Part shown: piece by piece, positions 49,078-58,600 of the stretch
Position numbering within the stretch: the first letter of the stretch is position 1
Layout of the letters: the number at the start of each line of letters is the position of its first letter
NCBI RefSeq assembly: GCF_016865485.1
Contig: NZ_AP024452.1
Coordinates: 5,416,501 to 5,480,500 of the forward strand
Origin: Luteitalea sp. TBR-22
GTDB lineage: Bacteria; Acidobacteriota; Vicinamibacteria; Vicinamibacterales; Vicinamibacteraceae
Direction: 5' to 3'
DNA: 64,000 nucleotides
Made by a program: the position numbers and the translations under genes
The notes under the pieces: generated by a model
The model's input: only the letters and a program-made list of their open reading frames with translations
Databases searched by the model: none
What the model was told of the DNA's origin: nothing

Positions 49078-49091
49078 TGTTCACGGTGACG

Positions 49092-50465
49092 ATGCAGAGC
49101 GCCGAACTGACTTTCGCTCGTGCCATCGCCGAGGACGTGCATGCCCGAGGAGGCCGGGCGCTCGTCGTCGGCGGCTACGTGCGCGACCAGTTGCTCGGGC
49201 ACCCGTCCAAGGACATCGACCTCGAGGTGTTCGGCGTGCCGGCCGACGACCTGAAGGCGCTGCTGGCGAGGTTCGGGGCGGTGAACACCGTCGGCGAGAG
49301 CTTCACCGTCTTCAAGGTGCAGGGACTCGACGTGTCGCTGCCGCGACGCGAGTCGAAGGTCGGGCGCGGGCACAAGGGCTTCGTGGTCCACGGCGACCCG
49401 TTCCTGCCCTTCGACGAGGCAGCTCGCCGGCGCGACTTCACGATCAACGCCATCGGGTGGGACCCGCGCACCGGCGAGTACCTCGACCCGCACGGCGGGC
49501 GGGCCGACCTCGAGGCGCGCGTCCTGCGGATGGTCGACGCCCGGACGTTCGGCGAGGACAGCCTGCGGGTGCTGCGGGCGCTGCAGTTCGCGGCGCGATT
49601 CGGTTGTCGAGTCGACGAGGCGACGGCGGGGGTGTGCCGGGCCACGCCGCTCGACGACCTGCCGGCCGAGCGCGTGTGGGGCGAGCTCGAGAAGCTGCTG
49701 CTCCGTTCGCCGCGGCCGTCGGTGGGCCTCCACCTCGCGCGCGACCTCGACGTCGTCGGGCGCCTCTGGCCGACCCTCGAGGCCCTGGCCCGCTGCCCGC
49801 AGGACCCCGAGTGGCACCCGGAAGGCGACGTGTGGACGCACACCTGCATGGTGGTGGACGAGGCCGCGACCCGGAAGGCGGCCTTCACGCATCCCGAGCA
49901 GGTGGCGCTGATGCTCGGCGCGCTGCTGCACGACATCGGCAAGCCGCTGGTGACCGCCGAGATCGACGGCCGGATCAAGAGCCCCGGCCACGAGGGCGAA
50001 GGCGTGCCGCTGGCCACCGCGCTGCTCGACGCCTGGCAGGTGCACACGCTCGAGGGCTACCCGGTGCGGGCGCAGGTGCTCGCGCTGGTCGCCTGGCACA
50101 TGCTCCCGGGCGCCTGGTGGAAGGCGCCCGAGCCGGTCTCGGACGGCGCATTCCGTCGGCTCGCACGCAAGGTGGACATGGTGCTGCTGGCGCGTCTCTC
50201 GGAGGCCGACTGCAACGGCCGCGGCGGGACCTTCGACTGCAGCTTCGGCCAGTGGTTCCTCGACCGGGTCGCCGCGCTCGGCGTCGAGCATGCGCCGCCG
50301 GCGCCGCTGCTGCTCGGCCGCCACCTCATCGCGCTCGGCGTCGCGCCGGGGCCGCGCATGGGCGAGATCCTCAAGGCCGTCTACGAACAGCAGCTCGATG
50401 GCGCGGTGACGACGCTGGAGGAGGCCATCGACGCCGCCCGTGGCAATTTGAAATTCGACAGTTGA
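49092..50465 (+). CDS. CCA-adding-type tRNA nucleotidyltransferase with HD domain
   Basis: A 457-residue class II nucleotidyltransferase. The head domain has VVGGYVRDQLLGHPSKDIDL with the catalytic aspartates D41 and D43, then RRRDFTINAIGW, LDPHGGRADLEARVLRMV and FGEDSLRVLRALQFAARFG. An HD domain follows (H280-D281 in LLHDIGKP), as in E. coli-type CCA enzymes with phosphohydrolase activity. It adds or repairs tRNA 3' CCA ends; a poly(A) polymerase function is less likely. A GTG at 49086 is an alternative start. The last codons (GNLKFDS) lie within a palindromic repeat. Confidence 0.9.
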   Translation: MQSAELTFARAIAEDVHARGGRALVVGGYVRDQLLGHPSKDIDLEVFGVPADDLKALLARFGAVNTVGESFTVFKVQGLDVSLPRRESKVGRGHKGFVVHGDPFLPFDEAARRRDFTINAIGWDPRTGEYLDPHGGRADLEARVLRMVDARTFGEDSLRVLRALQFAARFGCRVDEATAGVCRATPLDDLPAERVWGELEKLLLRSPRPSVGLHLARDLDVVGRLWPTLEALARCPQDPEWHPEGDVWTHTCMVVDEAATRKAAFTHPEQVALMLGALLHDIGKPLVTAEIDGRIKSPGHEGEGVPLATALLDAWQVHTLEGYPVRAQVLALVAWHMLPGAWWKAPEPVSDGAFRRLARKVDMVLLARLSEADCNGRGGTFDCSFGQWFLDRVAALGVEHAPPAPLLLGRHLIALGVAPGPRMGEILKAVYEQQLDGAVTTLEEAIDAARGNLKFDS

Positions 50466-50563
50466 AATTTCGCGGGGCGCGGCTTCGCCGTCGCCCCTCG
50501 CATTGTCGCGAGCGAGCGAAGGCCGGAGGCCGAGCCGCCGAGAAATTCGAATCTCGAATTACC
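50442..50563. repeat. Palindromic heptad-repeat element, copy 1
   Basis: An A/T-rich left arm made of 7-nt words (caatttg, aaattcg, acagttg, aaatttc) and a right arm (gaaattc, gaatctc, gaattac) flank GC-rich inner hairpins such as GGGGCG-N-CGCCCC. The left arm contains the stop codon of the nucleotidyltransferase and the right arm that of the convergent threonine dehydratase. Position suggests a bidirectional terminator or REP-like element. It has the same architecture as the element at 58451. Confidence 0.7.
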
Positions 50564-51500
50564 CGAGCAGCTCGGCGAGCGAAGCGAGCGAGACGTTGCC
50601 GCCGCTCAGCACGGCCACAACCGCTCCCTCGCGCGCCCAGTCGGCGACGCGCGGCAGCGCCCCGGCCACCGACGTCGCGCCGCTCGGCTCGATCGCGATG
50701 CGCGCGCTGTCCCACAGCGCCCGCGCCGCGTCGACGATCTCGGCGTCGCTCACCGTGATCACCTCGTCGACGAACGCCTGCACGTGCAGGAAGTTCATCA
50801 CGCCCGGGCGGACCGCCATCAACCCGTCGGCGATGCTGCTGACCGCCGACAGCGTCACCGGCATCCCTGCGGCCAGCGACTGCGACATCTTCGGCGCGCC
50901 CTCCGGTTCGACGCCGACGACGCGAATCGACGGATCGGTGAGCTTGACGGCCGCGGCGACGCCCGAGATGAGGCCGCCGCCGCCGACCGGCACCACGACC
51001 GTCCGCACCTCGGGCACCTGCGCGACGATCTCGAGCCCGGCCGTGCCCTGCCCTTCGATGATCGGCAGGCAGTCGAAGGGCGGCACGATGGCGAGCCCGC
51101 GCTCGTTGGCGATCGCCTCGGCGCGCGCCTGGCGGTGCACCGTCGTGGTGCCCGCAAACAGCACCTCGGCGCCCCAGCGGCGCGCGCCCTCGACCTTCAC
51201 CGCCGGGGCCGTCTCCGGCATCACGATGACGGCAGGAATGCCGAACCGTTGCGCCGCGAAGGCCACTGCCTGCCCGTGGTTGCCCGACGAGTACGTGATC
51301 ACGCCAGCGGCGCGCTGCGCCTCGGTCATGCGCGCCAGGTAGTTGTAGGCACCGCGAATCTTGAAGGCGCCGATCGGCTGCATCTGCTCGCACTTGACCT
51401 GCAGCGGCAGCAGCGGCGCGAGGTCGAGCACCGGCGTCCGGCGGGCGATGCCCTGCACACGCGCGGCGGCAGCGCGAATCCCCTCGAGGGTGGCGAGCAT
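50559..51500 (-). CDS. Threonine/serine dehydratase (PLP, catabolic type)
   Basis: A 313-residue fold-type II PLP enzyme. The Schiff-base lysine is in QPIGAFKIRGA, the SSGNHGQA loop binds substrate and the phosphate-binding loop is PVGGGGLISG. There is no ACT regulatory domain, so it resembles catabolic threonine dehydratase or serine racemase-like proteins, not biosynthetic IlvA. It deaminates threonine or serine to the 2-oxo acid. Its stop codon lies in the right arm of the palindromic element. Confidence 0.9.
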   Translation of the reverse strand: MLATLEGIRAAAARVQGIARRTPVLDLAPLLPLQVKCEQMQPIGAFKIRGAYNYLARMTEAQRAAGVITYSSGNHGQAVAFAAQRFGIPAVIVMPETAPAVKVEGARRWGAEVLFAGTTTVHRQARAEAIANERGLAIVPPFDCLPIIEGQGTAGLEIVAQVPEVRTVVVPVGGGGLISGVAAAVKLTDPSIRVVGVEPEGAPKMSQSLAAGMPVTLSAVSSIADGLMAVRPGVMNFLHVQAFVDEVITVSDAEIVDAARALWDSARIAIEPSGATSVAGALPRVADWAREGAVVAVLSGGNVSLASLAELLG

Positions 51501-55756: not shown

Positions 55757-58474
55757 ATGGCTCACGGCCCCGGCGAGACGCCATCGCCAGGGCGTGCCCC
55801 CGTCCCGGCGCGGGCCACGCTCCTCGACTTCTTCCACGACGCCACCCGGCGCACCGGCGCCTTCCTGGTGCACGACGACGGCTACCGGACGTGGTCCTAC
55901 CGCTACGACGAGGTCGGCGCAGCCGCCCGGCGGGTGGCTGCGCGCCTGCACGCCGCGGGCCTCGCCAAGGGCGACGCCGTGGTGCTCTGGGGCGAGAACC
56001 GTCCCGAGTGGATCGTTGCGTTCTGGGCCTGCCTGCTGCGCGGGATCGTCGTGGTGCCGATCGACTTCCGCTCGGCCCCGGCGCTGGTCGACCACATCGG
56101 CGGCATCGTCAAGGCCAGGCTGCTGCTCGCCGGTGAGGACGTGGAGGCCGCCGCGGTCACGCTCGACGTGCCACGCTGGCCGCTCGCCACCATGTTGCGG
56201 GAGACCGAGGGCGAGTCACCGGGCCGGGGCCCCGGGCCCGGCGAGCCGCCGCCGGTCCCGATCACGGCCGACGACACGGCGGAGATCATCTTCACGTCGG
56301 GGGCCACCGCCGAGCCCAAGGGCGTGATCATCACGCACCGCAACGTGCTCGCCAACATCGTGCCGATCGAGCGCGAGATGGCGAAGTACCAGCGGTACAT
56401 CCGGCCGTTCTCGCCGATCCGCTTCCTCAACCTGCTGCCCCTGAGCCACATGTTCGGGCAGGCCATGGCGACGTTCGTGCCGCCGATGCTCGGGGGCACG
56501 GTCGTCTTCATGCGATCGCTGGCGCCGGCCGACATCGTCGGCCAGATCCGGGCGCGCCGCATCTCGGTGCTCGTGTCGGTGCCCAAGATCCTCGACGTGC
56601 TGCGCGAGCACGTACGGCACCGGTTCCCCGAGACGCTGGCGGTGCAGCCGCCGCCCGATTCGGGCATCGCCCCCCTGCCGAAGGAGAAGTGGTACCGGCG
56701 GTGGTGGCGCTTCCGCCGCGTGCACCGCGCCTTCGGGATGAAGTTCTGGAGTGCGGTGGTGGGCGCGGCGCCGCTCGACCCGGAACTCGAGGCGTTCTGG
56801 GGCGGTCTGGGCTTCCTCGTCGTGCAGGGCTACGGCCTCACCGAGACGGCGCCGATCGTCACCCTGAACCACCCGCTGAACGCGCGGCGCGGCAGCGTCG
56901 GCAAGCCGATCCACGGCGTCGAGGTGAAGATCGCCGACGACGGCGAGATCCTGGTGCGCGGCGACAACGTGTCGCAGGGCTACTTCGGCGGCACCACCGA
57001 GGCGACCCGCACGCGTGCCGACGGCTGGCTGCACACCGGCGACATCGGCGGCCTCGACGAGCAGGGGCGGCTCTACATCCGGGGCCGCAAGAAGGAGATG
57101 ATCGTCACCCCGGAAGGCCTCAACGTCTTCCCGGAGGACGTCGAGCGCGCCCTGCTCGCCGAGACCGGGGTCCGCGACGCCGCCGTCGTGGGGCGGCACT
57201 GGGAAGGCGAGGAGCGCGTGCACGCCGTGCTGGTGCTCGACGATCCCGCCGCCATGGCCCGCGTCGTCCAGGGCGCCAACAGTCGCCTCGGCGATCACCA
57301 GAAGATTCGCAGCGCCTCGATCTGGACCGGCGCCGACCTGCCTCGGACCGAGGGCACGCGCAAGTTGAAGCGCACGGCGCTGCGCGCCTGGGCGGAGTCG
57401 GGCGAGCAACCGGCGGTACGGCCGGTGACCGGCGAGGACCCGCTGCAGCACGTCATCGGCCGCTTCGCCAAGGGGCGTGACGACGTCGACGACGACACGC
57501 CGATCGAGACGCTGGCCCTCAGCTCGCTCGAACGCGTGGAACTGCTCATGGCGCTCGAGCAGCAGTTCCAGACCATCGTCGACGAGGGCGCGTTCGCGGC
57601 CGCCCGCACGGTGGGGGACCTGCGCACCCTCGTCGGGGATCGGGAATCGGGGATCGCGGATCGGGAACGGCCCACCGCGGCGACGCTCGACCGGGCTGGG
57701 ACGACCGGCCCGACCGGCACCGAACCGGACGCACCGCGCCGGCTCGGTGGAACAGCCGACGCGACGCCCTTCGATTTTCCGCGCTGGAACCGCGCGCCCT
57801 GGGCGTACTGGCTGCGGCGCCTCAGCCTGCCGACGTGGATCCTGCCGCTCGGCCGCGTCTTCGCATGGGTGCACGTGGAGGGGCGCGAGCACCTGGAGGG
57901 GCTGCGCGGCCCCGTGGTGTTCGCGGCGACGCACCAGAGCCACATGGACACGCCCATCCTCCTGATGGCCCTCCCCCGGCGCTGGCGCTACGCGACCGCG
58001 GTGGCGATGGCCAAGGAGTTCTTCACGGCCCATTTCCACCCGGAGGGCCAGCCGATCGGCCGGCGGCTCACCAACGGCGCGAACTACTACCTCGCGTCGC
58101 TGTTCTTCAACGCGTTCCCCATCCCGCAGCGCGAGGCGGGAGCGCGCCATACGCTCCGCTACATCGGCCAGCTCTTCGAGGAGGGGCAATCGTTGCTGAT
58201 CTTCCCGGAAGGCAAGCGGACGATGGACGGCGAGATCAACCCGTTCCGGGCCGGAATCGGGATGATCGGCTCGAAACTGGGGGTGCCCGTGGTGCCGGTG
58301 CGGCTCGAGGGCGCCGACCGCCTGCTGCACCAGAAGGCGAAGTTCCCCACGCCCGGGCGGGTGCGGGTGACCTTCGGGCCGCCGCTGTACCTCGAGGGCG
58401 ACGATTACGCCGCGCTGGCCGGGCAGGTGGAGGCAGCGGTGCGTGCCCTCGGCAATTCGAAGTTCGAAATTTGA
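55757..58474 (+). CDS. Acyl-AMP ligase, carrier-protein domain and PlsC acyltransferase fusion
   Basis: A 905-residue three-part protein. Residues 15-545 are an AMP-binding ligase (IIFTSGATAEPKGVIITHRN, YGLTETAPIV, LHTGDIGGLDEQGRLYIRGR). Residues about 560-620 resemble an acyl carrier domain, with the likely phosphopantetheine serine S590 in ALSSLERVEL. A linker containing a heptad repeat (627-638) precedes a PlsC-type acyltransferase with H726-x4-D731 in THQSHMDTP and FPEGKRT. It could activate a fatty acid, hold it on its own carrier and transfer it to a lysolipid. It resembles Aas-like fusions but has the reverse domain order and a carrier domain. The last residues come from a palindromic repeat. 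Confidence 0.87.
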   Translation: MAHGPGETPSPGRAPVPARATLLDFFHDATRRTGAFLVHDDGYRTWSYRYDEVGAAARRVAARLHAAGLAKGDAVVLWGENRPEWIVAFWACLLRGIVVVPIDFRSAPALVDHIGGIVKARLLLAGEDVEAAAVTLDVPRWPLATMLRETEGESPGRGPGPGEPPPVPITADDTAEIIFTSGATAEPKGVIITHRNVLANIVPIEREMAKYQRYIRPFSPIRFLNLLPLSHMFGQAMATFVPPMLGGTVVFMRSLAPADIVGQIRARRISVLVSVPKILDVLREHVRHRFPETLAVQPPPDSGIAPLPKEKWYRRWWRFRRVHRAFGMKFWSAVVGAAPLDPELEAFWGGLGFLVVQGYGLTETAPIVTLNHPLNARRGSVGKPIHGVEVKIADDGEILVRGDNVSQGYFGGTTEATRTRADGWLHTGDIGGLDEQGRLYIRGRKKEMIVTPEGLNVFPEDVERALLAETGVRDAAVVGRHWEGEERVHAVLVLDDPAAMARVVQGANSRLGDHQKIRSASIWTGADLPRTEGTRKLKRTALRAWAESGEQPAVRPVTGEDPLQHVIGRFAKGRDDVDDDTPIETLALSSLERVELLMALEQQFQTIVDEGAFAAARTVGDLRTLVGDRESGIADRERPTAATLDRAGTTGPTGTEPDAPRRLGGTADATPFDFPRWNRAPWAYWLRRLSLPTWILPLGRVFAWVHVEGREHLEGLRGPVVFAATHQSHMDTPILLMALPRRWRYATAVAMAKEFFTAHFHPEGQPIGRRLTNGANYYLASLFFNAFPIPQREAGARHTLRYIGQLFEEGQSLLIFPEGKRTMDGEINPFRAGIGMIGSKLGVPVVPVRLEGADRLLHQKAKFPTPGRVRVTFGPPLYLEGDDYAALAGQVEAAVRALGNSKFEI
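57635..57669. repeat. Heptad repeat inside the fusion-protein linker
   Basis: Units ggggatc, gggaatc, ggggatc, gcggatc and gggaacg are in 7-nt register and encode residues about 627-638 between the carrier and acyltransferase domains. Confidence 0.8.
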
Positions 58475-58560
58475 AATTCAGGCGCGCCGGCTTCGCCTGG
58501 CGCGGCGGAGGCCGAAGGCCAAGCCGCCGGGAATTTCAAATTGTCCAATTTCGAATTGCC
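58451..58560. repeat. Palindromic heptad-repeat element, copy 2
   Basis: The left arm (58451-58479) and right arm (58531-58560) are inverted copies about 29-30 bp long with few mismatches, and both are built of 7-nt A/T-rich words (aattcga, agttcga, aatttga). Between them are two GC-rich hairpins, GCGCCGGCTTCGCCTGGCGC-like and GGCGG-AGGCCGAAGGCC-CCGCC-like. The left arm contains the stop codon of the fusion gene. It lies 40 bp before infA. A terminator or REP-type role is inferred. Confidence 0.75.
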
Positions 58561-58600
58561 CGCGTCAGTATGTGACAATGGTCCGTTGGAGACCGACTGA

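Follow-up and report, generated by a model that had tools for sequence, protein, structure and literature searches.

The palindrome at positions 50442-50563 of the window (the whole stretch of 64,000 nucleotides of Luteitalea sp. TBR-22 DNA analysed here) belongs to a family of palindromic elements found at 90 distinct places in the genome, chiefly where two convergent genes end. On balance, it probably belongs to a REP-like, non-autonomous repeat family whose roughly 90 copies sit at gene ends, would have spread as mobile elements and may give the neighbouring transcripts a symmetrical 3'-end hairpin.

The palindrome and the genes that end in it

The first-pass annotation placed a palindrome of heptads at 50442-50563, and both boundaries are exact. 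The element is an imperfect 122-bp palindrome that reads GGCAATTTGA...CGAATTACC, in which arms of A/T-rich heptads enclose a GC-rich core. A simple repeat finder is silent at this inverted repeat because the palindrome is imperfect, and Rfam families give no matches across the window at their gathering scores. The family model R1 matches 50440-50565 on either strand, at 78.5 bits on the forward strand and 52.4 bits on the reverse.

The description of the arms as A/T-rich heptads fits the left arm better than the right. The left arm (50445-50469, forward strand) is 77% A+T and consists of regular heptads (AATTTGA/AATTCGA/CAGTTGA/AATT(T)). The inverted right arm (50542-50560, reverse strand) is 67% A+T and less regular: it holds about two heptads, reads AATTCGA GATTCGA ATTTC inwards, falls one heptad short of the family consensus and leaves an 8-nt bulge opposite. 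The core and the flanks are 20% and 26% A+T, respectively. Within the core lie GC-rich inner hairpin 1 (50474-50497, forward strand; GGGGCGCGGC-TTC-GCCGTCGCCCC), which carries compensatory changes across copies, and the GC-rich inner hairpin 2 region (50512-50539, forward strand; GCGAGCGAAGGCC-GGA-GGCCGAGCCGCC type). The predicted fold energy of the palindrome is -63.2 kcal/mol, compared with -47.9 +/- 3.9 kcal/mol for shuffled sequences, none of which matches it (0/200). The predicted structure of the window copy favours a single long hairpin, and that of the family consensus is a three-way junction. The number of copies, 90 places in the genome, is stronger proof against chance than any of these features of the window copy.

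Both stops of a convergent gene pair fall inside the palindrome, as first noted. The tRNA nucleotidyltransferase-type gene (Pfam PolyA_pol and HD; 49086-50465, forward strand, start codon approximate) ends with the TGA at 50463-50465 on the same strand, inside heptad 3 (class -26). The threonine-dehydratase-like gene (Pfam PALP; 50559-51500, reverse strand) ends with the TAA at 50559-50561 (reverse strand, class -7), which the right edge of the element creates and which coincides in codon position with the native stop of the congener G004. The last residues of the nucleotidyltransferase are lost or altered relative to congeners: the TBR-22 protein now ends ..AARGNLKFDS*, compared with ..AARRLVAPGPPESGL* in G004, ..AARALIQR* in G002 and ..AARAILSGNA* in G001. 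The element codons at this C-terminus are absent from every homolog among the 30 loci compared (the TBR-22 gene and 29 from other genomes), and distant homologs with the same codons were looked for and not found among those 29. In G004, the same convergent nucleotidyltransferase/PALP pair stands without the element at an empty site, separated by 9 nt. The element therefore supplies the C-terminal GNLKFDS of the upstream protein, as the first-pass annotation had proposed. A second family copy in the window (58449-58562, forward strand, 61.9 bits) likewise encodes a protein tail, the ..GNSKFEI* of an AMP-binding/acyltransferase gene ending at 58474.

Copy number, anatomy and predicted structure

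The 6,468,984-bp TBR-22 genome holds 90 distinct places that match the element model at 46 bits or more, and the family thus extends well beyond the two copies in the window. An initial DNA search of the genome, in which 40 of 130 candidates were scored, gave 55 matches with the strands counted apart. A covariance model was then built from 43 aligned copies (alignment A1, 43 of 45 copies); up to 150 candidates were scored per genome, and in TBR-22 all 150 passed, corresponding to 86 places, which further stretches raised to 90. Four weak places below 40 bits were dropped from the list, and two (35 and 27 bits) from the evenly spaced sample. In that sample, 39 stretches of 20 kb (780 kb) contain nine strong matches, all nine of which were already listed. 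Copies match the model in both orientations, the two strands being nearly symmetrical.

The 90 ends of 45 copies share an edge consensus, (C)(T/C)GG(C/T)AATT, followed by AATT(T/C/G)GA heptads. The outer arm ends of these 45 copies lie 104-129 bp apart, for an element of about 125 bp. In a typical copy, the edge reads YGG(C/T)AATT, three to four AATTTGA heptads make up an arm, and two GC-rich hairpins form the core; the predicted consensus fold is a long A/T stem with two GC hairpins. The arms are paired in the predicted fold of all 43 aligned copies, and 85.3% of cells pair in the consensus structure versus 82.1% in shuffles. Covariation is found in the core, where both sides change in 8 of the 15 pairs of inner hairpin 1 (helix 4); RNAalifold alone recovered the inner hairpin only. 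Selection on arm pairing through compensatory changes was considered as well. Identity between the arms of one copy (1683/2050) is close to that obtained when arms are shuffled between copies (1685.7); the arms of a copy thus vary independently, and selection for their pairing is not supported.

Anchoring at stop codons

Gene contexts are strongly biased. With genes called by a codon-usage script of our own, not a standard caller, and start codons therefore approximate, 53 of the 90 places are convergent, 14 lie between two forward genes (++), 16 between two reverse genes (--), six are divergent and one is undecided. Convergent junctions make up 83 of 581 in the even TBR-22 sample, giving a binomial p of about 7e-23 for the 53 of 90. 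The neighbouring gene is known for 178 sides, of which 136 face a 3' end and 42 a start codon. The stop lies within -30 to +10 nt of the model edge on 129 of the 136 3'-facing sides, and inside the element on 66. These 66 stops are confined to four positions: 30 are edge stops (TAA in 28 cases, TAG and TGA in one each), and the others use the TGA of a heptad, the first in 23 cases, the second in 5 and the third in 8. There is no comparable anchoring at gene starts, with just 9 of 42 5'-facing sides in the same range. The spacer outside the element is 16 nt or less in 49 of the 53 convergent copies, and gaps of this size hold less than 1% of the convergent intergenic bases in the sample.

Comparison with congeners places the native stops at the same points. 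Measured from the arm's first base, the native stop of the congener lies between -14 and +19 nt in 56 of 59 comparisons; the other three are at -24, +33 (the window nucleotidyltransferase against G004) and +67. This set comprises the window locus and 14 of the 53 convergent copies, namely those with the best-scored genes and with neither stop more than 30 nt from the element; the closeness of TBR-22 stops was thereby selected for, and that of the congener stops was not. Two of the 14 (L044 and L247) lack a usable homolog. The edge stop often takes the position of the native stop (L042, L033, both sides of L038, L231 and the right side of the window copy). As a rule, then, the element begins at the gene's original end. 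The first-pass annotation suggested insertion at or over a gene end: the position at gene ends is indeed the rule, but most copies begin at the native stop and barely lengthen or cut the protein.

Relatives, empty sites and other palindromes

Outside TBR-22, the family is sparse. G004 has seven family places, down to 37 bits, and G012, from another family of the same order, has two weak ones. In G001, G002, G003, G005 and G006, none of the scored candidates passed, an 800-kb sample of G001 searched with the element model gives nothing above 28.2 bits, and the whole-arm pattern has no matches in the genomes of other species. The copies probably multiplied mainly in the TBR-22 lineage. Four convergent sites are empty in G002 with the same genes present (L033, L032, L239 and L261; gaps of 2, 8, 6 and 3 nt), and the ten orthologous loci searched in that genome contain neither a heptad- nor an octad-armed palindrome.

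Some of the same slots are filled by a different palindrome, with octad arms (AATTTCAG) and a core of the CACCGCCAACC-TTCGAA type, that begins at the stop or a few bases beyond. It occupies four of ten slots in G001 and three of ten in G004, where one more slot holds a member of the TBR-22 heptad family. For G001, four of ten slots against 4 of 83 convergent junctions gives p 0.004, a rough comparison that omits the sample match L343 (other words) and assumes that all four sample matches are convergent. Octad palindromes occur in several species of the genus, partly at shared convergent slots (G001 L276, L283, L268, L286 and L371:162-275; G004 L270, L282 and L285; TBR-22 L323:17111-17204 and L307:4595-4714). 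A further hairpin repeat, of the GTAGGG(C)CGGCTCTCCGAGCC type, is present at convergent junctions of G001, G002 and G004 (L292, L273, L269 and L280).

Three orthologous copies are common to G004 and TBR-22, and all three are oppositely oriented (L376/L033, L381/L026 and L378/L252). Their orientation points either to elements flipped in place by way of their arms or to a fresh insertion, and three cases do not decide between the two. It is conceivable, if doubtful, that convergent stops form a shared landing or replacement slot in the genus, in which unrelated palindromes armed with tandem units would start at the native stop and could flip. Such shared slots would imply either integration aimed at gene ends or elements swapped there by recombination through the arms.

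Heptads are not in themselves a hallmark of gene ends. Period 7 predominates among the intergenic tandem repeats of the genus (65 of 77 in TBR-22 and 93 of 116 in G001), and heptads are therefore not specific to gene ends; the intergenic types in the TBR-22 and G001 samples include GGGAGTC, GACGTTT, GCCCGGT and CGAACGC. Tandem (AATYTGA)4 arrays are found in at least 115 stretches (L110-L224) from many phyla by record title, including Bacteroidetes, Patescibacteria-type candidates, Planctomycetes, Chloroflexi, Nitrospirae and Acidobacteria among the matches listed. G012 carries tight heptad palindromes that lack the GC core (L083, L088, L092 and L099), with 31 + 35 matches to the pattern versus none in a control.

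Spread and function

In the favoured interpretation, a REP-like repeat is anchored at gene stops, chiefly those of convergent pairs, and occupies the space between the two native stops. The inward arms can offer TGA in up to three frames, and a gene that has lost its own stop would therefore terminate translation within the arm. Arm stops close three inward frames in 47 of 180 arms, two in 88, one in 40 and none in 5; outward, no frame is closed in 157 of 180. A three-frame stop as the element's function is rejected, with all three inward frames closed in only 47 of 180 arms. Octad palindromes of congeners, judged by their unit words, lack the inward TGA, which makes inward stops unlikely as a shared function.

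At the RNA level, the palindrome would most likely give each of the two transcripts a symmetrical hairpin at its 3' end, serving as an end barrier or as an aid to termination of another kind than the hairpin-plus-U-tract. A canonical bidirectional intrinsic terminator is rejected: none of the 90 copies shows a GC-rich hairpin followed by a U-tract on either strand, and no such pattern occurs at 50300-50750 of the window. This pattern does not exceed shuffled expectation at gene ends in general, either in TBR-22 (13/581 versus 13.6) or in G001 (17/539 versus 17.3), which makes a different 3'-end signal plausible in Luteitalea, to judge from these two genomes.

The same observations bear on a tentative alternative, which is possible without being probable: a selected gene-end module, that is, a two-way terminator or transcript separator for packed convergent genes, at which deletion bias removed the spacer and which spread by recombination or gene conversion and not by transposition. 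Without an excess of classical terminators (13/581 versus 13.6 in shuffles), another signal would be needed, and the strong enrichment at convergent junctions (53/90) and the unrelated octad palindromes at the same slots in congeners agree with such a module; yet the element has no U-tract, 36 of the 89 copies of known context are not convergent, and the even sample has 83 convergent junctions but nine copies altogether. G002, moreover, tolerates gaps of 2-8 nt without a palindrome at four such junctions. Wobble pairs in tandem copies prefer the transcribed strand (48 versus 27), a hint only, since the bias comes from few copies, is one among several tests and disappears across all copies (106 versus 102).

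The REP-like reading further supposes that the element spread as a miniature mobile repeat with the help of an enzyme that the searches did not find, and that copies survive only or mainly at gene ends. Counting against this reading are the independently varying arms, the lack of target-site duplications and of hairpin-plus-U-tract patterns, the failure to find a transposase with these ends and the opposite orientation of orthologous copies. A classical MITE, derived from an insertion sequence and moved by a cut-and-paste transposase that recognises its terminal inverted repeats, is unlikely. Each end carries an inverted repeat of about 30 bp, which suits a MITE, as do the length of 104-129 bp between outer arm ends in 45 copies, the A/T-rich ends and the lineage-specific expansion, but no target-site duplication rises above chance at any offset or length tested in a useful number of copies, and MITEs are not usually placed so precisely at stop codons. 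Nor is a transposase bearing the element ends apparent: the two weak Y1_Tnp (PF01797) hits in TBR-22 have no arms in their 3.2-kb loci, and the seven arm matches outside the listed copies have no transposase-bearing partner in the stretches read around them.

Slightly less likely still is a device that works at the DNA level, such as a cruciform or a gyrase or nucleoid-protein site that would handle positive supercoils at convergent junctions. The likeness of the two strands, the flipped orientation at all three orthologous G004 sites and the location where transcription converges would fit this role, against which stand the copies that lie between tandem or divergent genes. An origin as heptad microsatellites, grown by slippage and palindromic by chance, is highly improbable in spite of the dominance of period 7 (65/77 and 93/116 intergenic tandem repeats), since the non-repetitive core is homologous across copies and slippage cannot have made the whole element, though it may have lengthened the arms.

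The REP-like family bears on how the transcripts of convergent genes are separated in GC-rich bacteria without classical terminators. In TBR-22, one hairpin recurs naturally about 90 times at the ends of genes, most of them convergent, and the element-free orthologous junctions of congeners are ready controls. The ends of the repeat also rewrite protein C-termini, such as the GNLKFDS of the nucleotidyltransferase.

Comparison with known systems

The closest parallel is with REPs, whose convergent copies lie no more than 20 bp from either gene's 3' end and can supply stop codons (PMC3733652). The TBR-22 family resembles REPs in consisting of high-copy dispersed palindromes at 3' ends and convergent junctions that provide stops (PMC3733652). 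Its elements are larger (about 125 bp, 104-129 bp in 45 copies, versus 20-40 bp for a REP unit), with arms of tandem heptads and a core of two hairpins. The edge consensus of 90 ends from 45 copies has no GTAG/CGTC tag, and no RAYT gene with flanking copies is found, the two weak PF01797 hits lacking arms nearby. The family is thus REP-like in behaviour, yet differs from REPs in tag, size and transposase.

Other mobile repeats share fewer traits. Like MITEs (PMC10969869), the TBR-22 elements are small and numerous and have terminal inverted repeats; they differ in their anchoring at stops, in having no target-site duplication and in that no parent insertion sequence was found in the stretches read. 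TIRYT tyrosine transposases with TIR repeats are known in Acidobacteria (PMC3733652), and these too are palindromic repeat families of the same phylum; however, the two Y1_Tnp hits of TBR-22 have no such arms nearby.

Heptads that carry stops have a precedent in the TAACTGA heptamers of Beggiatoaceae, which provide stops in all three frames (PMC4679880). These repeats are direct, not inverted, lie mostly just upstream of start codons and have no shared core. Among long simple repeats, those with a heptad unit are the most frequent in most genomes (PMC4679880). The GGGAATC heptamers of Xanthomonas are also intergenic, and similar GGGAATC/GGGAGTC arrays occur in TBR-22; the Xanthomonas repeats are G-rich, have no conserved core and are separate from the TBR-22 family (PMC4692102). 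No published description of the TBR-22 heptad palindromes was recognised in the literature searched, which lies mostly outside subscription journals. Gene-end palindromes that supply stop codons are already known as REPs, and the build of heptad arms around two hairpins is a new variation.
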